Shown here: positions 3,716 through 24,079 of the stretch, piece after piece
Layout: each line of letters begins with the position of its first letter
How positions within the stretch are numbered: position 1 is the first letter of the stretch
Assembly: GCF_024346455.1 (NCBI RefSeq)
Contig: NZ_JAGQCY010000008.1
Coordinates: 1 to 64,000, forward strand
Reading direction: 5' to 3'
From: Cyanobium sp. Aljojuca 7A6
GTDB lineage: Bacteria > Cyanobacteriota > Cyanobacteriia > PCC-6307 > Cyanobiaceae
DNA length: 64,000 bases
The notes under the pieces: generated by a model
Told to the model about the DNA's origin: nothing
The model's input: only the letters and a program-made list of their open reading frames with translations
The model's database searches: none
Position numbers and translations under genes: made by a program

Positions 3716-4121
3716 GGAAAGCAGGCGAGGTGATCGCGATCGGTGCGGTGCGGCCTTCGGGCCAGAGCTGCGGCCGGTTGAGGAAAGTCCGGGCTCCCCA
3801 ATGGCCAGGCTTGCTGGGTAACGCCCAGTGCGGGTGACCGTGAGGACAGTGCCACAGAAACACACCGCCGATGGCCGGCCGGGCTCGCCCGGTGGCACAG
3901 GCAAGGGTGCAAAGGTGCGGTAAGAGCGCACCAGCGGCATCGAGAGGTGCCGGCTTGGTAAACCCCGGCTGGGAGCAAGGCCCAGGGACAGCGGTTGGCC
4001 ATCTTCCCCGTCCCGATTCCCATGCGCCGCTCGAGGCCGCCGGTGACGGCGGTCCCAGACAGATGATCACCCCCCCTGCCGTTGGCAGGGGAGAACAGAA
4101 CCCGGCTTACGTCCTGCTTTC
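3716..4121 (+). ncRNA. rnpB: RNase P RNA
   Basis: Catalytic RNA of RNase P, which cuts the 5' leader from tRNA precursors. The conserved core elements are present in order: GAGGAAAGTCCGGGCTCCC near the 5' side (about 3780-3798) and ACAGAACCCGGCTTACG near the 3' end (about 4095-4111), which together form helix P4. The ends pair with each other (AAAGCAGG at 3718-3725 with CCTGCTTT at 4113-4120) as helix P1, which sets the boundaries within a few bases. The about 405-nt length is normal for the bacterial type A RNA. rnc begins only 15 bp downstream, so two RNA-processing genes lie side by side. Confidence 0.95.
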
Positions 4122-4136
4122 CCCCCTTGCCCCGCG

Positions 4137-11442: not shown

Positions 11443-13461
11443 ATGGTCGCCGCCCCCACCACCCAGGTCGATAGCCACGTAGAGACGCTCTGCATCAACA
11501 GCATCCGCTTCCTGGCGGTCGATGCGATCAACAAGTCCAACTCGGGCCACCCCGGCCTGCCGATGGGCTGCGCTCCGATGGCCTTCTCCCTGTGGGACAA
11601 GGTGCTGCGCCACAACCCCAAGAATCCTCAGTGGTTCAACCGCGACCGCTTCGTGCTTTCGGCCGGCCACGGCTGCATGCTGCTCTACGCGCTGCTGCAC
11701 CTCACCGGCTACGACAGCGTGACCCTGGAGGACCTCAAGCAGTTCCGCCAGTGGGGCTCCCGCACCCCCGGCCACCCGGAAACCTTCGAGACCCCTGGCG
11801 TGGAGGTCACCACCGGCCCCCTGGGCCAGGGCATCTCCAACGCCGTGGGCCTGGCGATCGCCGAAGCCCACCTCGCGGCGAAGTTCAACAGGCCCGACGC
11901 CACCATCGTCGACCACTACACCTATGTGCTGATGGGTGACGGCTGCAACCAGGAGGGTGTCTCCAGCGAGGCCGCCTCCCTGGCCGGTCACCTGGGTCTG
12001 GGCAAGCTGATCGCCCTTTACGACGACAACCACATCACCATCGACGGCAATACCGGCGTGTCCTTCACCGAGGACGTGATGAAGCGCTATGAGGCCTACG
12101 GCTGGCATGTGCAGCACGTTGAAGACGGCAACACCGACGTGGCCGCCATCACCCGGGCGATCGAAGCGGCCAAGGCGGTCACCGATCGTCCCAGCCTGAT
12201 CAAGGTCACCACCACCATCGGCTACGGCTCCCCCAACAAGGCCAACACCGCCGGCGTGCACGGCGCCGCCCTCGGAGCCGAGGAGGCCGAGCTCACCCGC
12301 CAGCAACTGGAGTGGAGCTACGGGGCCTTCGAGGTGCCCGAGCCCGCCTACGAGCACTGGCGCGCCGCCATCCAGCGCGGGGCCGCCGCTGAAGCCTCCT
12401 GGAACGAAAGCCTGGCCGCTTACCGAAGCCGGTACCCCGCCGAAGCGGCCGAGTTCGAGCGCCTGCTGCGCGGTGAGCTGCCCGAGGGCTGGGATGCTTC
12501 GCTGCCCGTCTTCACCCCCGCCGACAAGGGCCTGGCCACCCGTCAGCACTCCTACAACGCCCTCAACGCCTTCGGCCCCAGCCTGCCCGAGCTGATCGGC
12601 GGCTCCGCCGACCTCACCCACTCCAACCTCACCGACATCAAGGGCGAGGCCAGCTTCCAGAAGGGCCATGAGGCCAACCGCTACCTGCACTTCGGCGTGC
12701 GGGAGCACGCCATGGCGGCGATCCTCAACGGCATCGCCTACCACAACAGCGGCCTGATCCCCTACGGCGGCACCTTCCTGGTGTTCGCCGGCTACATGAT
12801 CGGCGCCATGCGCCTCTCGGCCCTCTCCCAACTGGGCGTGATCTACGTGCTCACCCACGACTCGATCGGCCTGGGCGAAGACGGTCCCACCCACCAGCCG
12901 GTGGAAACCCTGGCCAACCTGCGCGCCATCCCCAACCTGCTGGTGATGCGCCCCGGCGACGGCAATGAGACGGTGGGGGCCTACAAGGTCGCCGTCACCA
13001 ACCGCAAGCGGCCCACGGTGCTGGCCCTCAGCCGCCAGGCCATGGTCAACCAGGCCAACTCCGCCGCCGACAAGGTGGCCCAGGGCGGCTATGTGCTCGA
13101 AGACTGCACCGGCACCCCGGATCTGATCCTGATCGGCAGCGGCACCGAGCTCGACCTCTGCGTCAAGGCTGCCGCCCAGCTGAGCGCTGCAGGCAAGGCC
13201 GTGCGCGTGGTGTCGATGCCTTGCGTCGAGCTGTTCGAGGAGCAGGACGCCGCCTATCGCGAGTCGGTGCTGCCCGCGGCCGTGCGCAAGCGGGTGGTGG
13301 TGGAAGCCTCCAGCTCCTTCGGCTGGCACAAGTACGCCGGCTTCGATGGCGCCACTGTGTCGATCGACAGCTTCGGTGCGTCCGCCCCCGGAGGCGTCTG
13401 CCTCGAGAAGTTCGGCTTCACCGTCGACAACGTGGTGGCCACGGCGAAGGCCCTGGGCTGA
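11443..13461 (+). CDS. tkt: Transketolase
   Basis: Thiamine-diphosphate enzyme of the Calvin-Benson cycle and pentose phosphate pathway, transferring two-carbon units between sugar phosphates. The 672-residue protein has the N-terminal domain with [24 protein letters not shown] and the ThDP motif starting [19 protein letters not shown] near residue 167. The pyrimidine-binding domain has [18 protein letters not shown], and the C-terminal domain is complete. Start ATG 11443 follows a Pro/Thr-rich leader typical of the family. In this lineage it is a highly expressed gene. A hairpin at 13502 follows. Confidence 0.98.
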
Positions 13462-13501
13462 TCGAGCCTTACCCCCTCAAGGGTTGGCTTGATCCTTTCC
13501 G

Positions 13502-13526
13502 AAGCCGGGCCTTGGGGTCCGGCTTT
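13502..13526 (+). terminator. Probable terminator of tkt
   Basis: AAGCCGGGCC (13502-13511), loop TTGG, GGTCCGGCTT (13516-13525) form a 10-bp stem with one G-U pair, followed by a short T-rich tail (TTTAT). It lies 40 bp after the tkt stop and marks the end of the acpP-fabF-tkt block. Confidence 0.65.
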
Positions 13527-13559
13527 ATCATCTCAGCTTTATCCGTTCGCAAGGACAGT

Positions 13560-14519
13560 TCAGCCCTCTCGGGAGGGCACGTTGTGGCGGCTGCGCTCCA
13601 CCACCAGCGGCAGGCGCAAGGTGCGCTGGTTGATGAAGCCGATGTATTCGCCCAGGATCCCGAGGGCGAACATCATGGCGCCGGCGAAGAACAGCGCCGA
13701 GATCGAGAGCATGGCCAGGCCGAACTGAAAGCTTTCCCAGAAGATCAGCTTGCTGAGCATCACCACGAACGACAGCAGGATCGAGAGGGCCCCGAGCGTC
13801 AGGCCGGCGGTGGTGATCAGCCGCATCGGCTTGCGGGAGGAGGTGACAATGCCAAGCACACCGAAATCCACCAGAAAAGAGAGCGAGGCCGAACTGCTGC
13901 CTCCTTTGCGATCGGCACTCACGTACGGAATGGTGGACCACTTGAAGCCGATGGCACAGACCAGACCCTTGATGAAGGGATAGGAATCGATCGATTGCCG
14001 CAGGGCCAGAATCACGGATCGATCGTAGATGCCGAAACCTGTGGTGTCGCGCACCATCGGGTAGTCGGAGAGCCAGGACAGCGTGGCGTAGTAGATCTTC
14101 TTGCAAAGAAACAGGATCGGGCTTTCGTGGCTGGAACGCCGTACAGCAAAAATCACCTGGTGATCACCCTGCTTCCAGGCCGTGATCAGATCCGCCACCA
14201 ACTCGGGGGGATCCTGCAGATCTGACATCAGAAAGACATTGGCGTCCGCATCAGGGACCAGCAGGGCGTTGGCAGAGGAGCGCACAAAGCCGAAGTTCGA
14301 GACATTGCGAATCAGGCCAACCCGTGAATCCCTGGCCGCCAATCCTTCGATCAGAGCGACCGTTTGGTCGGTGGAGCAATTGTCGGCAAACACGACGGAG
14401 AAGACATCGTCGGGGAATTGATCAAGAACCTTCGACAACCTCACATAGAGGGCTTCAACGTTCGAGGACTCGTTGTAACAGGGAATGCATATGGCGATAT
14501 GATGAGTCGCTGCCGTCAT
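13560..14519 (-). CDS. Family 2 glycosyltransferase with C-terminal membrane helices (ArnC/GtrB/DPM type)
   Basis: Probably transfers a sugar from a nucleotide donor to polyprenyl phosphate at the inner membrane face. The 319-residue protein has a GT-A domain (IAICIPCYNESSNVEALY at 8-25, ADNCSTDQT at 45-53, DLQDPPELV at 100-108, the GT2 metal/nucleotide region) and two C-terminal hydrophobic hairpin segments at about 228-300 ending GILGEYIGFINQRTLRLP. This is the layout of ArnC, GtrB and dolichol-phosphate mannose synthases. The start lies 6 bp from that of the divergent four-helix gene, and the CDP-dideoxyhexose operon is upstream. The donor could therefore be a CDP-sugar (inference). Visibly AT-richer than tkt. 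Confidence 0.85.
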   Translation of the reverse strand: MTAATHHIAICIPCYNESSNVEALYVRLSKVLDQFPDDVFSVVFADNCSTDQTVALIEGLAARDSRVGLIRNVSNFGFVRSSANALLVPDADANVFLMSDLQDPPELVADLITAWKQGDHQVIFAVRRSSHESPILFLCKKIYYATLSWLSDYPMVRDTTGFGIYDRSVILALRQSIDSYPFIKGLVCAIGFKWSTIPYVSADRKGGSSSASLSFLVDFGVLGIVTSSRKPMRLITTAGLTLGALSILLSFVVMLSKLIFWESFQFGLAMLSISALFFAGAMMFALGILGEYIGFINQRTLRLPLVVERSRHNVPSREG

Positions 14520-14525
14520 AAGACA

Positions 14526-14867
14526 ATGTTGACCAAAAGCATGCTGCAGGCAGTGTATCTATTCGCTGCCGTTCTAGCGGCATGCCTGGGCCAATTCATC
14601 TTGCGGATCCGCCCTCCGGCCGAAGGCATCCGCACCACATTGCTCTATCTGGTGGCCTCGCTGCTTTGCTATGGCGCATCGTTCGGAATCACGGCCCTTG
14701 TGCTGCCCGCCGCCGATCGCAAACTGGCAGTGTTGATACTCAGCCTGCAATATCCGCTGCTGTATGTGCTCTTCGCTGTCAAGGATTCGGCCGCTCTGCC
14801 ACCGGCCAGTCTGGTGGCGATCAGCCTCGGTTATGCAATTGTCGCTGTGGGCATGTTCGGGCGTTAG
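14526..14867 (+). CDS. Small four-helix membrane protein, possible lipid-linked-sugar flippase (ArnE/SMR-like)
   Basis: A 113-residue protein of four hydrophobic segments (about residues 6-24, 34-60, 66-84, 90-111), with only short loops and a GQFILR motif after the first helix. The last helix (SLVAISLGYAIVAVGMF) resembles the end of small multidrug resistance / ArnE-ArnF proteins, which flip lipid-linked aminoarabinose. It starts 6 bp from the divergent glycosyltransferase and overlaps the opposing GT-C-like gene tail-to-tail by 4 bp. It is thus an inverted gene between two minus-strand genes. Family assignment is by shape and size and is tentative; the open frame and hydrophobic pattern support real coding. 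Confidence 0.6.
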   Translation: MLTKSMLQAVYLFAAVLAACLGQFILRIRPPAEGIRTTLLYLVASLLCYGASFGITALVLPAADRKLAVLILSLQYPLLYVLFAVKDSAALPPASLVAISLGYAIVAVGMFGR

Positions 14868-16285
14868 CTGAGACTGACGCAGAGCCGATCGATCTGTTTC
14901 GGGCCCAGCGTGAAACTCCACACCGGACCGCCATAGATCGTTACAGGCAGAGGATCCGACTTCCTACATTGATCTCTCAATTGATCCTCGTAGACGAATG
15001 TCGTGACCTCACCACTGGGACTCTCCTCGGTGACGGCCCTGCCAACGACATTGTTGTGATAAAAGACCAACGTCAGAACCAGCCAGGTCGCCAAGGCACG
15101 GCTAGAGGCCGTGTTTCGCGTTTGTTTGTCACGGGCCAGCAGGACAAACGCCATCAACATCACAGACAGAAACAGGACGGTGTTCCAATAGAAGAATCGT
15201 CCCCCCGCGTCCTCCACCACCATCAGGGCGAGGTCCACGCCGCGTCGGGTGGCCACCAGCAGGCTGGAGAAGGAGAGCACCAGGGTGGAGAAGATGGCCA
15301 GGTAAAGAAGGGCCGGCTGGCCCATCTGCCTCGTCACCACCCGCATCGCCAGCAGCACTAGGGCCAACACCCCCAGCACGGCCAGCAACTGCAGGGGATC
15401 AGGCAGATTCCGGAGGTACCACCAGGGCTTGTAGCCCCCCAGCAGTGGGCTGATCAGGTGAACCGTGAACCAATCGAGCAGGATGTCAGGCCGCTTCAGC
15501 AGCTTGGCGATCGCCCTGACCGTTGAGAGGGGGTAGTTGGTCTGCAGCTGGGAAAAGTAGATCTGCAGGGACGACAGCAGCACCGGCAGGCTCAGCCACA
15601 GTGGGTGGATCGGCAGTCGGCGGCGACGCAGGCCATGGAAGACCAGCAACGGAATCGTGTAGATGGCCATGAAGGGGCCGGTGAAGGCCGCCACCAGCCC
15701 ATAGAGCAGCAGAAATGCCTTGAGAAACGGAGACTTGAAGACCTCCGGGCGCCCACTCCCCTGCTGTGCCACCACGCCATAGGCGATCAGGATGAAGCCA
15801 AGCGGGAAAAAGATGTAGGCATTGGGCAGATTCAGATAGGTCTCGCCGGCATAGGGGTAATAGACGTAGGGGATGTAGGCCACCCGCATCAGCCGGCTGA
15901 ACACCCCGGCACCGATCAGGGCCTCGACACTGACCAGCGGCAGCAGGTAGGACACCCAGGCCACCAGCAGAAAGAAGCCTGGATAGGTCAGTGGGGAGAG
16001 CAGATTCACAGCCGTGAGCGCCGTGAGGCGTTGCAGCAGATGGCTGTATCCCGCATACAGCTGCAGCAGCGAACCGGTGCCCTGATCGATGGCCTGCTGC
16101 AGAAAGATCGAGCCGTCCTCCGCATAGAGGGTGGGCGCCAGGGAGACGGAGGGGCGCCGCAGGTGGTAGCCGAGGGCACAGAGGCCGATCAGGGCGGCGG
16201 ACACGAGAAAGCCATGCAGCCTGGGAGGCAGTCGCTGCTCCGCTGACTGCCGGATCTGCTGGATCTTGTGGAGGACGTTCGCCAT
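14864..16285 (-). CDS. Large multi-pass membrane protein, probable GT-C-type glycosyltransferase
   Basis: A 473-residue protein with about ten membrane segments from residue 25 onward. The first periplasmic loop carries LYAEDGSIFLQQA (about 53-65). An acidic pair in this loop is the hallmark of GT-C enzymes, which use polyprenyl-phosphate sugars as donors outside the membrane. Aromatic-rich motifs (YIPYVYYPYAGETYLNLPNA) follow. A basic N-terminus lies in the cytoplasm. It is downstream of rfbE by 21 bp on the same strand and overlaps the four-helix gene at its 3' end. The likely role is to transfer the lipid-linked sugar to a surface polysaccharide. Start at ATG 16285. Confidence 0.6.
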   Translation of the reverse strand: MANVLHKIQQIRQSAEQRLPPRLHGFLVSAALIGLCALGYHLRRPSVSLAPTLYAEDGSIFLQQAIDQGTGSLLQLYAGYSHLLQRLTALTAVNLLSPLTYPGFFLLVAWVSYLLPLVSVEALIGAGVFSRLMRVAYIPYVYYPYAGETYLNLPNAYIFFPLGFILIAYGVVAQQGSGRPEVFKSPFLKAFLLLYGLVAAFTGPFMAIYTIPLLVFHGLRRRRLPIHPLWLSLPVLLSSLQIYFSQLQTNYPLSTVRAIAKLLKRPDILLDWFTVHLISPLLGGYKPWWYLRNLPDPLQLLAVLGVLALVLLAMRVVTRQMGQPALLYLAIFSTLVLSFSSLLVATRRGVDLALMVVEDAGGRFFYWNTVLFLSVMLMAFVLLARDKQTRNTASSRALATWLVLTLVFYHNNVVGRAVTEESPSGEVTTFVYEDQLRDQCRKSDPLPVTIYGGPVWSFTLGPKQIDRLCVSLS

Positions 16286-16306
16286 GGGTGCGCGCAGCGT
16301 CTCCGC

Positions 16307-17371
16307 TCAGGCCTTCATCAGGTTGGTTTCGGTCCAGGCGAGCATGCGGCTGACGCCGTCGCGGCAGGAGATGGCCGGCACCCAGCCGAGCAGGCGCTGG
16401 GCCTTGCCGATGGCGGCGATGAAGCAGTCCTGGTCGCTGGCCCGCCGGGGGGTGGGCGTGTACACCAGCGGCGGAATGGCGAGCAGTTCGGAGAGCAGGG
16501 CGAACAGCTCCAGCAGGCTGAGGGAGTTGGCGGCGCCGCCACCGATGTTGAAGATCTCCCCGTTCATCTGCTGGCGGTGGTCGTAGGCGGCCCGGTACAG
16601 GCGGATCAGGTCGTCGGCGTGGAGCACATCGCGCACCTGCTTGCCGGTGCCGGCGATGGTGAAGGGCTCGGGGGCCACGCCGGCGAGGTGGGCACGCTTC
16701 TGCTCGATCGCCTTCTGGCAGAACCAGCCCACCCAGCCCTGGTCGAAGGAGGCGAACTGGCGGCCGCCGAAGATCGAGGAGTGGCGGAAAACCACTGTTT
16801 TCAGGCCGTAGACGCGAGCCCAGTCGCGCACGTATTGGTCGGCGGCGCCCTTGGAGCAGCCGTAGGGGGTGGAAAAATCCAGCCCCAGCGCTTCATCGAG
16901 GCCTTCGGGGTGGTCGCTCAGGTGGTAACGGGTGGGGGTCTCCTCGTAGCGCAGTTCCTCCAGATCGCCATAGACCTTGTTGGTGCTGCTGTAGGCGATC
17001 AGCGCCTCAGGGGACAGGGCCCGGGCCGCCTCCAGCACAGCGAACGTGCCCAGCACGTTGGTCTGCAGGTCGCGGGCGGGATCGGTCAGGGAGGTGGTCA
17101 TGGCCACCTGGCCGCCCACGTGGCAGATGTAGTCGAAGGGGGCGTGGCGGCGGAACACGGCCAGCACGGCCTCCGCCTCGGCCAGGTCGGCCTGGAGGAA
17201 GTGGAAGCGCCCCGGCGCGGCCTGCTGCTCCAGCCAGGCCAGGTTGGCCGCCGACCCCTTGCGGAACAGGGCATCCACCACGATCACCTCGGCCCCTTCC
17301 TGCAGGTAGGAGGCAGCGAGGTTCGATCCCAGAAAGCCGCAACCGCCGGTGATCAGGACCTTCATCGACAT
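16307..17371 (-). CDS. rfbE: CDP-paratose 2-epimerase (CDP-tyvelose forming)
   Basis: Converts CDP-paratose to CDP-tyvelose, a 3,6-dideoxyhexose donor. The 354-residue extended SDR protein has the NAD motif TGGCGFLGSN at 9-18, the family segment IAYSSTNKVYGDLEELRYEE, the YGCSK catalytic YxxxK, and FASFDQGWVGWF, all characteristic of the tyvelose epimerase (rfbE/tyv) group rather than UDP-sugar epimerases. Two ATGs lie together (17371 and 17365). The first shares one base with the stop of the upstream reductase gene, so the two are translationally coupled. Genes for the preceding pathway steps lie immediately upstream. Confidence 0.85.
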   Translation of the reverse strand: MSMKVLITGGCGFLGSNLAASYLQEGAEVIVVDALFRKGSAANLAWLEQQAAPGRFHFLQADLAEAEAVLAVFRRHAPFDYICHVGGQVAMTTSLTDPARDLQTNVLGTFAVLEAARALSPEALIAYSSTNKVYGDLEELRYEETPTRYHLSDHPEGLDEALGLDFSTPYGCSKGAADQYVRDWARVYGLKTVVFRHSSIFGGRQFASFDQGWVGWFCQKAIEQKRAHLAGVAPEPFTIAGTGKQVRDVLHADDLIRLYRAAYDHRQQMNGEIFNIGGGAANSLSLLELFALLSELLAIPPLVYTPTPRRASDQDCFIAAIGKAQRLLGWVPAISCRDGVSRMLAWTETNLMKA

Positions 17372-18237
17372 CAGGGCAGAGGGGACGCGGGGAGCCGCAG
17401 ACCAGCCAGGTCCGGAACGTATCGCTCGATCTGATCGGGGCGGTCGGGAAGCACACCGGGGCGCAATCTACCGGTCGCCCCCAGGCGCTCCCATTCCGCT
17501 TCGGCGAAGGCCAGCAGGCTGGTGGCGGCCCCCGAACCGATGTTCACCACCAGGGGCGCGCCGGCGGCCACATCGGGCCGCGCACAGGCCGCCAGCAGGT
17601 GGTCGGCCACCTCGGCGACGGGGATGAAATCGCTGATCTGGCGGCCGGAGGTCATCGGGAAGTCGTGGCCGGCTTGGGCGGCACGCCGCAGGGAAGGCCA
17701 GAAGTTGCCTGAATACTGGCCCTCGCCGTAGGCGGAGAAGATGCGGCCGTAGAACAGCTCCAGCCCCTCGGCGATGGCGAAGGCGCACAGCAGCTGGAAG
17801 GCCGCCGCCTTGCTGGCGCCGTAGGCGCTCAGGGGCTCCAGGGGGGCGTCGGGGGGGATGGCCTGGTAGCGGCGGGCGGCGTTGCCGTACTCGTGACTGC
17901 TGCCGGCCACGACGCAGCGGCGCACCCCCGCCTCCGCCGCCCGCTCCAGCAGCCGCAGGCTGCCGGCCACATTGGCCTGCACCAGCTCGTCCCAGCTGGC
18001 GGGCTTGGGGCTCACCCCGGCCGAGGCCAGGTGCAGCACCGCCTCCACGCCCTCCAGCGCCGAGGTCTCCAGGCTGGCGAGGTCGCCCTGGCACCACTCG
18101 GGCTCACCTGGCAGGGGGATCACCGGGGCGGAGGCGGGGCTGCGGCGCAGGGCCCGCACCTGGTGGCCCGCCGCCAGGGCCGCCGCCAGCACATGGGAGC
18201 CGATGAAGCCGGTGCCGCCGGTGAGGAACAGCCTCAT
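17371..18237 (-). CDS. NAD(P)-dependent SDR reductase, probable CDP-paratose synthase
   Basis: Probably reduces the 4-keto group of CDP-4-keto-3,6-dideoxyglucose to give CDP-paratose (RfbS-type) or CDP-abequose (RfbJ-type). The 288-residue SDR has the nucleotide motif TGGTGFIGSHV at 6-16, SSHEYG at about 113-118 and the catalytic YGASK (Tyr139, Lys143). Its position between the 3-dehydrase rfbH (ATGA overlap at 18234-18237) and a CDP-paratose 2-epimerase makes the paratose branch the better guess. The sequence alone does not separate the two stereochemistries, so no symbol is given. Confidence 0.7.
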   Translation of the reverse strand: MRLFLTGGTGFIGSHVLAAALAAGHQVRALRRSPASAPVIPLPGEPEWCQGDLASLETSALEGVEAVLHLASAGVSPKPASWDELVQANVAGSLRLLERAAEAGVRRCVVAGSSHEYGNAARRYQAIPPDAPLEPLSAYGASKAAAFQLLCAFAIAEGLELFYGRIFSAYGEGQYSGNFWPSLRRAAQAGHDFPMTSGRQISDFIPVAEVADHLLAACARPDVAAGAPLVVNIGSGAATSLLAFAEAEWERLGATGRLRPGVLPDRPDQIERYVPDLAGLRLPASPLP

Positions 18238-19727
18238 CGGCTGCGGCAGAAGTCGAGGATCACCTCGATCTCCTTGGCCAGCATCGGGGCCGTCAGGCCC
18301 GGGTAGGTGCCGAGGAACAGGGTGTCAACCATGATCGCGTCGGCGCCGGCCAGCTCGCCCACCACCCGCAGGGCGTCGGGGCGGTCGGCGCGCAGCTGCA
18401 CGAAGGCCGGCTGACGCACCAGGTTGCCGCCGAACAGCATGCGGTTGCCGATGCGGTGGGCATCGAGCTCCCGGGCCAGGTCGGTGCGGCGGAAGGGGGC
18501 GTCGGGCTTCACCGAGATCTTGAAGCCGAACCAGGAGCAGTCGGTGCGGCAGCCCGTGGCATCCCAGGAGAAGCCGGCCTGCGGATCCCAGCCGGTGGCG
18601 TGGGTGGGCAGGGAGAACTCCAGCACGGACTCGGTGGGCACCAGCCCCTCGCGCAGGGTCTGCCAGTTGCGCTTGCGGGCCTCGATGAACTCGGGGAGGC
18701 GGCGCAGCTGCACCCGGCCGATGGCGGCCTGGGGATCGAGGGGTTTGAGGTTGAAGCCGAGGTGGCTGTAGATGTACTTGTGGTCGTAGCCGGCGGGCAG
18801 TTCGCCCAGCTGCCAGTCGAAGCGCTTGCCGCAGGTGTCGTCCTTGCCGGAGGGGCACCAGCAGTCGCGGCCCCAGTCGCGGAAGCTCTCGGCCACCACC
18901 TTGAGCTTCTGGTCGCGGACGATGTTGACGGCGCCGCCCTCGCCCATGGTGAGGTGGTGGGGCGGGTAGAAGCTCTGGGTGCTGATGTCGCCCCAGGTGC
19001 CGGTCCAGCGGATGACGCGGTCGGGGCCCTCCTCGAGGCCAGGGCTGTTGGCGCTGAAGCCGAGGGATTCGGCCAGCTCCCGGGGCATGGAATAGGAGCA
19101 CCCCAGGGCGTCGCAGTTGTCCTCGACGAGATAAAGATCATGGGCGCGGCAGAAGCGCAGCACCGCCGCCAGATCGAAGGGGTTGCCCAGGGCGTGGGCC
19201 ATCATCACGGCCTTGGTGACGCCGGGCCGGTAGGCGGCCTCCAGCTGGTCGCAGCGGGCGTTGCCGGTGACCGGATCGGCGTCGATGAACACCGGCACGG
19301 CGCCCACCTGCAGGATCGGCGCCACGGTGGTGGGGAAGCCGGCCGCCACCGTGATCACCTCATCGCCGGGGCGCAGGCGCCGCTCGGCGGGGAGGCGGTG
19401 GGAGGTGAGGGCCGAGATGGCCACCAGGTTGGCGGAGGAGCCGGAATTGACCAGCAGGCTGTGGCGCACCCCGAGGAAGGCCGCCAGCTCGCTCTCCATG
19501 GCGGCGCCTTCGGTGCCGAGGGTGAGCCAGAAGTCGAGGGTGGTGCCCACGGCCGCTTCGACTTCGTCTTCGGTGAAGACCCGGCCGGCGTAGGGGATCG
19601 TCTGGCCGTCGGCGTGGGGGGTGCGATCCGGGTCATCGCCGGGGCGATAGGCGGCGTGGGCGCGGCGGGCGTAGTCGCGGGTGAGCCGCAGGATCTCCTG
19701 CTTGAGCTGGTCGAGGTCGGCGGTCAT
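18234..19727 (-). CDS. rfbH: CDP-4-keto-6-deoxyglucose 3-dehydrase (E1)
   Basis: Removes the C3 hydroxyl of CDP-4-keto-6-deoxyglucose, the step that creates 3-deoxy sugars. The 497-residue aspartate-aminotransferase-fold protein binds PMP/PLP but has His257 in SFYPPHHLTMGEGG where aminotransferases have the Schiff-base lysine, as expected of dehydrases of this group. Cysteines 289, 291 and 299 (C-x-C-x7-C, in RDCWCPSGKDDTC) match the iron-sulfur ligands of E1; Cys205 in EDNCDALG is a candidate fourth ligand. The start ATG 19727 overlaps the rfbG stop (ATGA). A reading frame extends upstream to 20405 but has no family sequence. The partner reductase (E3) gene is not in the window. Confidence 0.93.
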   Translation of the reverse strand: MTADLDQLKQEILRLTRDYARRAHAAYRPGDDPDRTPHADGQTIPYAGRVFTEDEVEAAVGTTLDFWLTLGTEGAAMESELAAFLGVRHSLLVNSGSSANLVAISALTSHRLPAERRLRPGDEVITVAAGFPTTVAPILQVGAVPVFIDADPVTGNARCDQLEAAYRPGVTKAVMMAHALGNPFDLAAVLRFCRAHDLYLVEDNCDALGCSYSMPRELAESLGFSANSPGLEEGPDRVIRWTGTWGDISTQSFYPPHHLTMGEGGAVNIVRDQKLKVVAESFRDWGRDCWCPSGKDDTCGKRFDWQLGELPAGYDHKYIYSHLGFNLKPLDPQAAIGRVQLRRLPEFIEARKRNWQTLREGLVPTESVLEFSLPTHATGWDPQAGFSWDATGCRTDCSWFGFKISVKPDAPFRRTDLARELDAHRIGNRMLFGGNLVRQPAFVQLRADRPDALRVVGELAGADAIMVDTLFLGTYPGLTAPMLAKEIEVILDFCRSR

Positions 19728-20824
19728 GGGGTGGAACGGCCCGGCGGGAGAGCGGCTAGGTAGGCGGTGAGGTCGTCGAGGCAACAGGCCAGCGGGTCGT
19801 CGCCCGCCTCGATCACGCGGCGATACCACTGAAGCGTGCGGGCGGTGGTGGTCGCGAAGTCCCAGCGGGGCGACCACCCGAGGCGGTGGTGGGCCTTGTC
19901 GACCACCAGATTCAACAGACCGGCCTCGTGGGGGGCGCTGGGGTCGGAGGCATCGATCCAGGTGCCGGGCCAGTGGGCCAGGGCCTGCTCCACCAGCTCT
20001 TGCACGGGCCGGTTGGCCTCCAGCTGGGGCCCGAAGTTGAAGGCCTCGGCCATCGCCAGGCCATCGGAGGGCTCGGCGAGGGCCTCGGCCAGGGCCAGGT
20101 AGCCGCCGAGGGGTTCGAGCACGTGCTGCCAGGGGCGGGTGGCGGCGGGGTTGCGCAGGGTGATGGGCTCGCCGGCGCGCAGGGAGCGGACGGTGTCGGG
20201 AATGATGCGATCGGCCGCCCAGTCGCCGCCGCCGATGACGTTGCCGGCCCGGGCGCTGGCGATGCGCAGGTGGGGCGACTGGTGGGGCAGGGTGCCGCAG
20301 TAGCTGGCGCGCCAGGAGCTGATCGCCAGCTCGGCGGCGGCCTTGCTGCTGCTGTAGGGGTCGTGGCCGCCGAGGGGGTCGTTCTCCCTGTAGCCGTAGA
20401 GCCATTCGTTGTTGCGGTACACCTTGTCGGTGGTGATCAGCACCGCGGCGCAGGGATGGGCCAGGGGGCGCAGGGCCTCCATCAGATGGATGGTGCCCAT
20501 CACGTTGGTGTCCCAGGTGAGCACCGGCTCGGCGTAGCTGCGCCGCACCAGGGGCTGGGCGGCCAGGTGCAGCACCACCTCCGGCTGGACGGCGGCCACC
20601 AGCTCGCGCAGGGCGGCCGGATCACGCAGATCGCCGATGTGGTGATCGAGGCGGGAGGCCAGGCCCAGCTGGTCGAACAGGGAAGGGTCGGTGTCCGGCG
20701 CCAGGGCGAAGCCGGTGACGCGGGCGCCGAGTTCGCAGAGCCAGAGGGCCAGCCAGCTGCCCTTGAAGCCGGTGTGGCCGGTGAGCAGGACGCGCCTGCC
20801 CTGCCAGAAGGCGGGGCTGATCAT
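19724..20824 (-). CDS. rfbG: CDP-glucose 4,6-dehydratase
   Basis: Converts CDP-glucose to CDP-4-keto-6-deoxyglucose with bound NAD. The 366-residue extended SDR starts MISPAFWQGRRVLLTGHTGF; the glycine motif TGHTGFKGSWL is characteristic of this enzyme. Also present are HLAAQPLVRRSYAEP, TTDKVYRNNEW and the catalytic YSSSK. The ATG at 20824 is 2 bp behind the rfbF stop; a longer in-frame extension to 20989 is rejected because it lacks conserved sequence and overlaps rfbF. The 3' end overlaps rfbH by 4 bp. The order F-G-H is the same as in enterobacterial dideoxyhexose clusters. Confidence 0.95.
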   Translation of the reverse strand: MISPAFWQGRRVLLTGHTGFKGSWLALWLCELGARVTGFALAPDTDPSLFDQLGLASRLDHHIGDLRDPAALRELVAAVQPEVVLHLAAQPLVRRSYAEPVLTWDTNVMGTIHLMEALRPLAHPCAAVLITTDKVYRNNEWLYGYRENDPLGGHDPYSSSKAAAELAISSWRASYCGTLPHQSPHLRIASARAGNVIGGGDWAADRIIPDTVRSLRAGEPITLRNPAATRPWQHVLEPLGGYLALAEALAEPSDGLAMAEAFNFGPQLEANRPVQELVEQALAHWPGTWIDASDPSAPHEAGLLNLVVDKAHHRLGWSPRWDFATTTARTLQWYRRVIEAGDDPLACCLDDLTAYLAALPPGRSTP

Positions 20825-20826
20825 GG

Positions 20827-21600
20827 TCAGCTCCAGACCTTCCAGGGGGCGCGGCCCTGCTGCCAGAGGTCCTCCAGGCGCTGGCGGTCGCGCAGGGTGT
20901 CCATGGGCTGCCAGAAGCCGCGGTGCTTGAAGGAGCTGAGCTGGCCCTGGGTGGCCAGGGCCTTGAGGGGGGCCTGCTCCCAGACGCACTGGTCGCCGTC
21001 GACCAGGTCGATCACGGCGGGCTCGAGCACGAAGAAGCCGCCGTTGATCCAGGCGTTGTCACCGTCGGGCTTCTCCTCGAAATCGGCCACCGCATCGCCT
21101 TCCAGGTGCAGGGCGCCGTAGCGGCCGGGGGGCTGGACGGCGGTGAGGGTGGCCTGCAGGCCCTCGCGGCGGTGGTGGGCGATCAGGGCGGTGATGTCCA
21201 CATCGGCGACGCCGTCGCCGTAGGTGAAGCAGAAGGATTCCCCCGGCGGCAGGTAGCTGCGCACCCGGGCCAGACGGCCGCCGGTGAGGGTGGCATCGCC
21301 GGTGTCGACCAGGGTGACCTTCCAGGGTTCGGCCTTCTGGCGGTGCACTTCCATGTGGTTGAGATCCATATGGAAAGTGACATCACTGGTGTGCAGGAAA
21401 TAGTTGGCGAAGTATTCCTTGATCACATAACCCTTGTAGCCGCAGCAGATGATGAAGTCGTTGATCCCGTGGTGGCTGTAGATCTTGAGGATGTGCCACA
21501 GGATCGGCTTGCCGCCGATCTCCACCATCGGCTTGGGCCGCAGGTGGGTTTCTTCCGCTAATCGGGTACCCAGTCCACCGGCCAGGATGACGGCTTTCAT
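20827..21600 (-). CDS. rfbF: Glucose-1-phosphate cytidylyltransferase
   Basis: Makes CDP-glucose from CTP and glucose-1-phosphate, the first committed step of CDP-dideoxyhexose synthesis. The 257-residue nucleotidyltransferase starts [18 protein letters not shown], with [20 protein letters not shown] and the [10 protein letters not shown] metal-binding region around residue 125. These are diagnostic for the cytidylyltransferase rather than the thymidylyl- or uridylyltransferases (note HxFI-like substitution by [14 protein letters not shown]). It is the first gene of the operon, so the promoter should lie in the visibly AT-richer stretch just upstream (21601-21800). Confidence 0.96.
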
Positions 21601-23823: not shown

Positions 23824-23871
23824 CTACGGCAAAGGACGAGGGCGCGGCCTGAGATTGGTTTCACGATCCTG

Positions 23872-23971
23872 TTCCACTTCCCTGCGCCGGCATGACCCGG
23901 ATCAGGTTCGGAGGGTGTGATCTCAGCCCTGGGCGCAGCGATCGGTGGATCCTGTGCCGGGCACCCCTAGT
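23872..23971 (-). promoter_or_regulatory. TPP riboswitch (THI element) in the thiC leader
   Basis: Reading the minus strand, the order CTAGGGGTGCCCGG, then GGGCTGAGATCACACCC, then CCTGATCCGGGTCATGCC, then GGCGCAGGGAAG is the classic thiamine-pyrophosphate aptamer with its invariant CTGAGA and CTGATC...GGGT...ATGCCGGCG elements. It precedes thiC on the same strand and is expected to repress it when TPP is abundant, probably by masking the translation start or by termination in the 54-bp spacer, where no T-run terminator is evident. Confidence 0.95.
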
Positions 23972-24079
23972 GACTTTCGAAACCTAGCAAGGCTGAAAGG
24001 GGATGGGGCTAAGCCTGAACGGACGTAGGGCTCCGCAGCAACGTTTCCCCAGGGCTGATGACCCGGGTCGGCGAAGGCC

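Follow-up and report, generated by a model that had tools for sequence, protein, structure and literature searches.

Which sugar is handled by a membrane glycosylation cassette that lies at the end of a CDP-dideoxyhexose operon? This question is raised by a locus of Cyanobium sp. Aljojuca 7A6 (NCBI RefSeq assembly GCF_024346455.1), located within positions 1 to 64,000 of the forward strand of contig NZ_JAGQCY010000008.1; this whole stretch of 64,000 nucleotides is called the window below. A preliminary description had singled out three genes beside the operon, encoding a family 2 glycosyltransferase (GT2), a small membrane protein and a polytopic membrane protein, and had read them as an Arn- or Gtr-like system for lipid-linked paratose or tyvelose. 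As a whole that interpretation is partly supported. Our analysis indicates that the locus probably encodes a three-component system of the Gtr type that decorates the cell surface with a 3,6-dideoxyhexose, using CDP-tyvelose or CDP-paratose as the donor. The finding is broader than first noted, and a new donor class is predicted for systems of the Gtr type. We computed the gene order, the GT2 and GtrV-like families, the pathway enzymes, their conservation, the clade linkage and the active-site changes. The features in question are as follows.

13560..14519, minus strand: GT2 of 319 amino acids (aa), from a divergent clade of the GtrB/sll0501 family, with two C-terminal transmembrane helices (PF00535, 8e-18)
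14526..14867, plus strand (opposite to the others): small four-helix membrane protein, candidate flippase, 113 aa from ATG
14864..16285, minus strand: polytopic GT-C-like transferase, assigned to the GtrV family, 473 aa, with an invariant EDG at residues 56-58
16307..17371, minus strand: rfbE, CDP-tyvelose (CDP-paratose) 2-epimerase, with YxxxK at 170-174 and WVGWF at 213-217
17371..18237, minus strand: rfbS-like reductase of the short-chain dehydrogenase/reductase (SDR) type, probable CDP-paratose synthase (PF01370, 4.6e-38, and operon position; reaction inferred)
18234..19727, minus strand: rfbH, CDP-4-keto-6-deoxyglucose 3-dehydrase (NF011936, 615 bits, cut-off 423), 497 aa from the start codon used
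19724..20824, minus strand: rfbG, CDP-glucose 4,6-dehydratase (TIGR02622, 488 bits, cut-off 278), from an inferred internal ATG, the mechanical open reading frame extending to 20989
20827..21600, minus strand: rfbF, glucose-1-phosphate cytidylyltransferase (TIGR02623, 478 bits, cut-off 300)

The minus-strand genes form a single run from 21600 to 13560, in the order rfbF, rfbG, rfbH, the rfbS-like reductase, rfbE, the polytopic protein and the GT2. The polytopic gene begins 21 nucleotides past rfbE, so that the trio lies directly downstream of the pathway genes; the preliminary description had placed it next to the operon. RfbF, RfbG and RfbH score above their NCBIfam equivalog cut-offs, and RfbE matches the structures of CDP-tyvelose 2-epimerases (9rl0, E 5e-122; 1orr, E 9e-113), with motif residues as named in a section of PMC7851689; the RfbS-like protein is placed in the CDP-tyvelose pathway by its position and its SDR family. 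For the donor, the product, the flipping step and the acceptor we infer the following route. RfbF, RfbG, RfbH and RfbS would make CDP-paratose, which RfbE would convert to CDP-tyvelose. On the cytoplasmic side of the membrane, the GT2 would take tyvelose (or paratose) from its CDP carrier and load it onto polyprenyl phosphate, and the 113-aa protein would help the lipid-linked sugar to cross the membrane. Finally, the GtrV-family protein would transfer the sugar outside the membrane to a surface polysaccharide, most likely O-antigen.

We examined whether the GT2 resembles known enzymes that load sugars onto lipid carriers. Residues 4-306 align with the structures of Synechocystis GtrB (sll0501) at E 4e-34, and the protein matches PHROG 841 GtrB at 4.5e-47. 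A GT-A domain is followed by two C-terminal transmembrane helices, as previously described, the hydropathy count being 2 in two close relatives. In a 64-row tree, which has long branches for ArnC, L296 and L297, a 100/100 branch splits 41 clade proteins, the window GT2 included, from 20 controls, two phage or prophage GtrBs and ArnC. By sequence comparison the clade is sister to canonical GtrB and divergent from it. Within the clade, the window group is joined first by the GT2 of genome G217 (same family, 100/100) and then by that of G357 (another family, 100/96). In both genomes rfbF, rfbG, an rfbH-like gene, an SDR gene and rfbE stand beside the GT2, with rfbE directly adjoining.

Residues of the active site were compared between 41 clade members and 22 controls, in window GT2 numbering; positions 98, 100, 161, 127 and 204 correspond to D94, D96, D157, R122 and R200 of sll0501 by a hand count from the structure alignment. 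Position 47, which by motif comparison we take to be the equivalent of the base-contacting Asp39 of PfDPMS, is Asn in 40/41 clade members and Asp in 22/22 controls. Cytosine N3 accepts a hydrogen bond, and a change from Asp to Asn at the base contact suits such a base. The first Asp of the DxD motif (position 98) is absent from 41/41 clade members and present in 21/22 controls. Likewise, position 161 is Gly in 41/41 clade members and Asp in all 22 controls. The clade conserves Asp 100, the metal Asp (40/41), Gln 102 (41/41) and Arg 204 (40/41), and has Arg or Lys at position 127. Thus, of the canonical GtrB residues (D94 and D96 of the DxD motif, and D157) the metal Asp alone is kept. ArnC has Asp at the equivalents of 47 and 98 and Met at that of 161. 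In PfDPMS, according to part of PMC5526996, Asp39 is the residue that binds the base; of the two Asp residues of DxD, the first makes contact with a hydroxyl of the sugar and the other binds the metal. Read on these equivalences, the clade shows the pattern of an enzyme that has retained its metal site and altered its donor site.

The clade is also linked to the donor pathway. In a survey of 386 genomes of the phylum, 34 have a GT2 match at E<=1e-45 (two of these, G096 and G105, are of the ordinary GtrB type and without RfbH over its cut-off). RfbH over the cut-off is present in 28/34 of them, compared with 51 of the remaining 352. Outside the genus, rfbF, rfbG or rfbH was found within ~10 kb of the GT2 in 13/33 clade loci versus 0/20 control loci with ordinary GtrB (p 7e-4), loci that are not phylogenetically independent; 10/33 clade GT2s and 4/20 control GT2s sit less than 5 kb from a contig end, and among clade loci flanked on each side by 5 kb of contig or more the count is 10/23. 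Here the 33 loci are 35 minus the extra flanks L302 and L303, with L227, which has three clade GT2s, counted once, and the controls are the first 20 genomes whose best match was below 165 bits. In the phylogeny, which had been expected to show whether the GT2 belongs with enzymes for unrelated donors, the protein falls in a clade with physical linkage to rfbFGH, apart from ordinary GtrB and ArnC.

These results bear on one alternative, namely that the trio is an ordinary Gtr cassette for glucose, or for another UDP- or GDP-sugar, lying by chance beside the rfb genes. The dideoxyhexose would then be added by a cytoplasmic transferase encoded elsewhere, as in Salmonella, where WbaV adds it in the cytoplasm from the CDP-sugar. 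GtrV is annotated as a glucose enzyme, sll0501 GtrB has been shown to be one, and the 38 GT2-domain matches in the genome make a cytoplasmic transferase elsewhere possible. Still, a 100/100 branch sets the GT2 outside the ordinary GtrB clade, neither the D157 equivalent nor the first Asp of DxD is present in it, and the rfbFGH linkage is seen again in distant genomes but at none of the 20 control loci. We regard an ordinary cassette as improbable.

A second alternative keeps the system and changes the sugar: the lipid carrier would receive another CDP-sugar related to 4-keto-3,6-dideoxyglucose, for example a branched one. It draws on several clade GT2s outside the genus that adjoin rfbFGH without rfbE, some with transketolase-like genes. 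In the genus itself, rfbS and rfbE directly precede the trio, and the two nearest outside GT2s also adjoin rfbE, which makes a sugar other than tyvelose or paratose quite improbable for the window.

Clade loci outside the genus carry further genes of interest. Two-part transketolase-like genes lie beside GtrA and a clade GT2 at L227:9833-11565 and at L230:9014-10737, the latter locus also having rfbFGH; two-carbon-branched dideoxy sugars are possible products. At L232:234-8715, six polytopic proteins of 454-505 aa stand beside GtrA and a clade GT2, and the one scanned is DUF2142. At L223:8331-9443, in a small genome (1.7 Mb) from the same family, a GT2-GtrA fusion lies next to an rfbE-linked GT2 and a protein resembling GT87.

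Returning to the proposed dideoxyhexose system, the polytopic protein shows no match in Pfam or NCBIfam. Its match to PHROG 19534, which comprises phage glucosyltransferases, spans residues 32-413 (3.5e-5), and 10/14 members of the polytopic family match the same PHROG (best 8e-46). A distant homologue matches GtrV of Shigella phage SfV (E 2e-3, 28% over 121 aa). With a profile built from 11 distant homologues, the score was 121 bits for SfV GtrV and 70 bits for the window protein, compared with 9 for the highest-scoring shuffled decoy; a profile built from the genus alone did not raise GtrV above decoys. These intermediates assign the polytopic protein to the GtrV family. Of the Arn- and Gtr-like character first suggested for the trio, the Gtr part is thus the better supported, with the polytopic protein in the GtrV family; ArnT is absent from the best eight matches of the polytopic profiles, and ArnC lies outside the GT2 clade.

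The ten-helix protein with AEDG in its first loop had been compared to the GT-C layout. The acidic motif stands: E56-D57-G58 is invariant in 14/14 homologues, 11 of which are only 18-22% identical to the window protein, and E56 and D57 are the acidic pair expected of the GtrV family and GT-C layout, with the placement in the first loop taken from the hydropathy pattern. The figure of ten helices is less secure, since hydropathy points to 7 for the two close relatives counted and to 6-10 for 11 distant homologues. An AlphaFold model of the protein was poor, with a predicted local distance difference test (pLDDT) of 49, and was dropped as a query for fold searches. Weak homologues occur in 11/386 genomes in other gene contexts. 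A GT2 of 223-227 aa is present in five of these 11 neighbourhoods; no open reading frame in any of the 11 has rfbF, rfbG or rfbH as its best match, and rfbE matches reach 135 bits at most.

The gene for the small protein, the third of the trio, is nested on the opposite strand, as originally noted, overlapping the stop of the polytopic gene by 4 nucleotides (tail to tail, an overlap present in the window and in 8/10 of the loci described below) and lying 6 nucleotides from the GT2 start (head to head). Because of this convergent and divergent placement (14519-14867), a read-through transcript reaching the GT2 would be antisense to the small gene, an arrangement inside the pathway and trio run that looks like a noncontiguous operon. 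The frame is open in 14/14 sequences compared, and variable sites number 35/19/87 at the three codon positions (114 each); variation falls mostly at third positions, the pattern expected of coding sequence.

AlphaFold gives the small protein four helices (pLDDT 69), in agreement with the four-helix protein first proposed. Its likeness to ArnE, to small multidrug resistance (SMR) proteins or to GtrA was not borne out by homology. Searches with 11 members at E<=10 returned neither GtrA (PF04138) nor any SMR family among the Pfam matches; hhalign gave a probability of 0.2% against GtrA and nothing significant against an ArnE/F profile, and the small-protein profile A7 scored EmrE at 10.6 bits, not significant beside a best decoy of 9.8. 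EmrE occupies ranks 1-8 in Foldseek with probabilities of 0.75-0.98, but with E values of 0.1-0.45. Moreover, in VIA-align chains unrelated to EmrE reach the same Z against the model as EmrE does, so the EmrE likeness is weak.

Could the 113-aa protein be an accessory or regulatory membrane protein, with flipping left to a GtrA domain encoded elsewhere or to another carrier? No GtrA, SMR or Arn family match was found for it, its gene runs counter to its neighbours, and a single GtrA domain exists at another place in the genome, within a 388-aa frame that has a GT2 match as well. Set against this are its flippase-like size and number of helices, its slot, where clade relatives often have GtrA, its presence in the same 15 genomes as the polytopic protein, and EmrE as the top, though weak, fold match. 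Small neighbours of other clade GT2s were PF04138 in 9/10 cases scanned, the tenth being DUF2304; a GtrA profile placed GtrA near the GT2 at 21/33 clade loci versus 1/20 controls, a count that is biased because the profile was built partly from clade loci. An accessory role appears unlikely overall, though it is the alternative to which we give most room, and we favor the small protein as a candidate flippase on the grounds of its size, its place and its co-occurrence rather than of homology. A search of 166 genomes of the family found matches in 6, all of the same genus.

Conservation within the genus supports the trio as a real unit. In the genome collection, the order of the three genes and the opposite strand of the small gene are kept in 10/10 loci, and the full rfbFGHSE set precedes the trio in the window and in 9/10. 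The tenth locus (L010/G175) has intact rfbS, rfbE and trio genes but has lost rfbG and the greater part of rfbH; a 218-aa frame at L010:7381-8037 resembles parts of rfbF followed by the rfbH end, and the loss is natural decay. Among named records, the closest polytopic genes are from Cyanobium, Synechococcus, Aphanothece and Microcystis elabens.

The survey covered 42 genomes of the genus; these and the collection loci appear to overlap (L010/G175, L005/G314, L008/G386, L011/G401), and their counts are not additive. The polytopic gene is present in 15/42, the small gene in the same 15 with one copy at a contig edge in addition, and near-identical RfbE (>700 bits) in exactly those 15. RfbH over the cut-off occurs in 24/42, including 14/15 with the polytopic gene, so that the co-occurrence of trio and rfb genes, on which the first proposal had been made to depend, holds (14 genomes with both, 1 with the polytopic gene alone, 10 with RfbH alone and 17 with neither; Fisher p 4e-4). 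Near-identical RfbE is found in none of the 10 genomes with RfbH and no trio, indicating that the trio tracks the rfbS/rfbE (paratose/tyvelose) version of the pathway, not rfbFGH generally; the absence of the trio from these 10 is less sure because five of their rfbH contigs are shorter than 8 kb and five genomes are <90% complete or nearly so. One of them, G410, has a broken RfbE. The presence of RfbH by itself was rejected as a predictor of the trio, given these 10 genomes.

Genes from two of these 10 loci were scanned with Pfam. At L131 (genome G408), positions 11615-16591 hold rfbFGH followed by an acetolactate-synthase-like thiamine pyrophosphate (TPP) enzyme, an SDR and a 3-dehydroquinate (DHQ)-synthase-like gene, which suggests another branched sugar. 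At L133, an ABC transporter and a GT2 lie ahead of rfbH.

Several results weigh against a tyvelose- or paratose-specific system of this kind. Three of the genus genomes without the trio have RfbH and a 74-81% identical RfbE, yet no trio. The retention of the trio in G175 despite the loss of rfbG and rfbH fits recent decay or another donor. A second TyvE-like 2-epimerase is encoded in the 3.13 Mb genome (G000:C29:177877-178875, L161); it is 47% identical to RfbE, scores 324 bits to 9rl0, has YxxxK and WVAWF motifs, and occurs in many genus genomes, some of them without the trio, so RfbE homology by itself is no proof of tyvelose. Across the phylum, the clade GT2 is present in only 6/14 genomes with a strong RfbE match (E<=1e-95) and missing from 8. 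The clade is not exclusively rfb-linked either, as 20/33 of its loci lack rfbF, rfbG and rfbH within ~10 kb. In the nearest outside relatives, the RfbH-like protein of G217 reaches 308 bits, below the family cut-off, and the rfbS-like gene of G357 is only weakly similar (56 bits). Many other GT2s have Asn at the base position, among them ones that do not use CDP, and Asn 47 is for that reason suggestive, not diagnostic, of a CDP donor. The equivalent of D157, essential in sll0501, is Gly in the window GT2, and the D157N mutant of sll0501 GtrB is inactive according to a portion of PMC4728340; Asp is not universal at that position, since ArnC has Met there. Furthermore, the small protein matches no flippase family, and no GtrV-family protein lies <=3 kb from any of the 33 outside clade GT2s. 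The full combination of trio and rfb genes is accordingly seen only in the genus: the link between GT2 and rfb extends beyond it, and the complete combination is a genus feature.

Elsewhere in the window, a TPP riboswitch lies upstream of thiC (23862-23978, minus strand) and RNase P RNA is found at 3718-4124.

The system can be set beside several known ones. It resembles gtrA-gtrB-gtrV of SfV (NC_003444), which likewise combines a GtrB-family GT2, a GtrV-family polytopic transferase and a small membrane protein. In SfV the small protein is GtrA and the transferase is annotated for glucose; in the window the small protein is not GtrA, its gene has the opposite orientation, and the trio is preceded by a complete CDP-dideoxyhexose pathway. 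With the Salmonella O-antigen pathway (rfbFGHSE) the locus shares the CDP-tyvelose enzymes. The Arn system of E. coli follows the same logic of a GT2 (ArnC), small four-helix protein(s) (ArnE/F) and a polytopic transferase (ArnT), and differs in that ArnC lies outside the window clade on a long branch and the ArnE/F profile is not significant. Synechocystis GtrB (PDB 5EKE/5EKP) aligns with the window GT2 over nearly its full length and has the GT-A domain with two transmembrane helices, and makes undecaprenyl phosphate-glucose from UDP-glucose, as reported in part of PMC4728340; the window clade has lost the equivalents of D94 and D157 and has Asn at the base contact. Three-component addition of pentofuranose also uses a lipid-linked donor and GT-C transfer outside the membrane, with a lipid-donor enzyme that is not GtrB-like, and the term CDP is absent from the main text of that paper (PMC11127046). 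In the open-licence literature, no title or abstract opening among the matches listed concerned a polyprenyl-phosphate-linked 3,6-dideoxyhexose; the one paper in which polyprenyl phosphate and tyvelose both occur refers to CDP-tyvelose, in the passage concerned, simply as a nucleotide sugar (PMC7729866). Apparently, the lipid-linked route is known for ordinary sugars and not for the dideoxyhexose class.

A wider reading, which we put forward tentatively and at somewhat less than even chances, is that the GT2 clade as a whole, whose members occur in several families of the phylum, moved from UDP-hexose to CDP-3,6-dideoxyhexose donors by a rebuilding of the donor site. The clade would then define a general periplasmic route for decorating surface glycans with dideoxyhexoses, which in this genus would work with a new flippase family encoded antisense within the operon. 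The 3,6-dideoxyhexoses are textbook examples of immunodominant sugars, and in the well-known cases their addition takes place in the cytoplasm. If the proposal is true, a lipid-linked periplasmic route extends the Gtr logic to a CDP-activated class of donors. It also predicts, residue by residue, how enzymes of the GtrB family may switch donors, and offers a new flippase candidate that can be tested. For the organisms themselves, such decoration of picocyanobacterial surface glycans may matter for recognition by phages and grazers.

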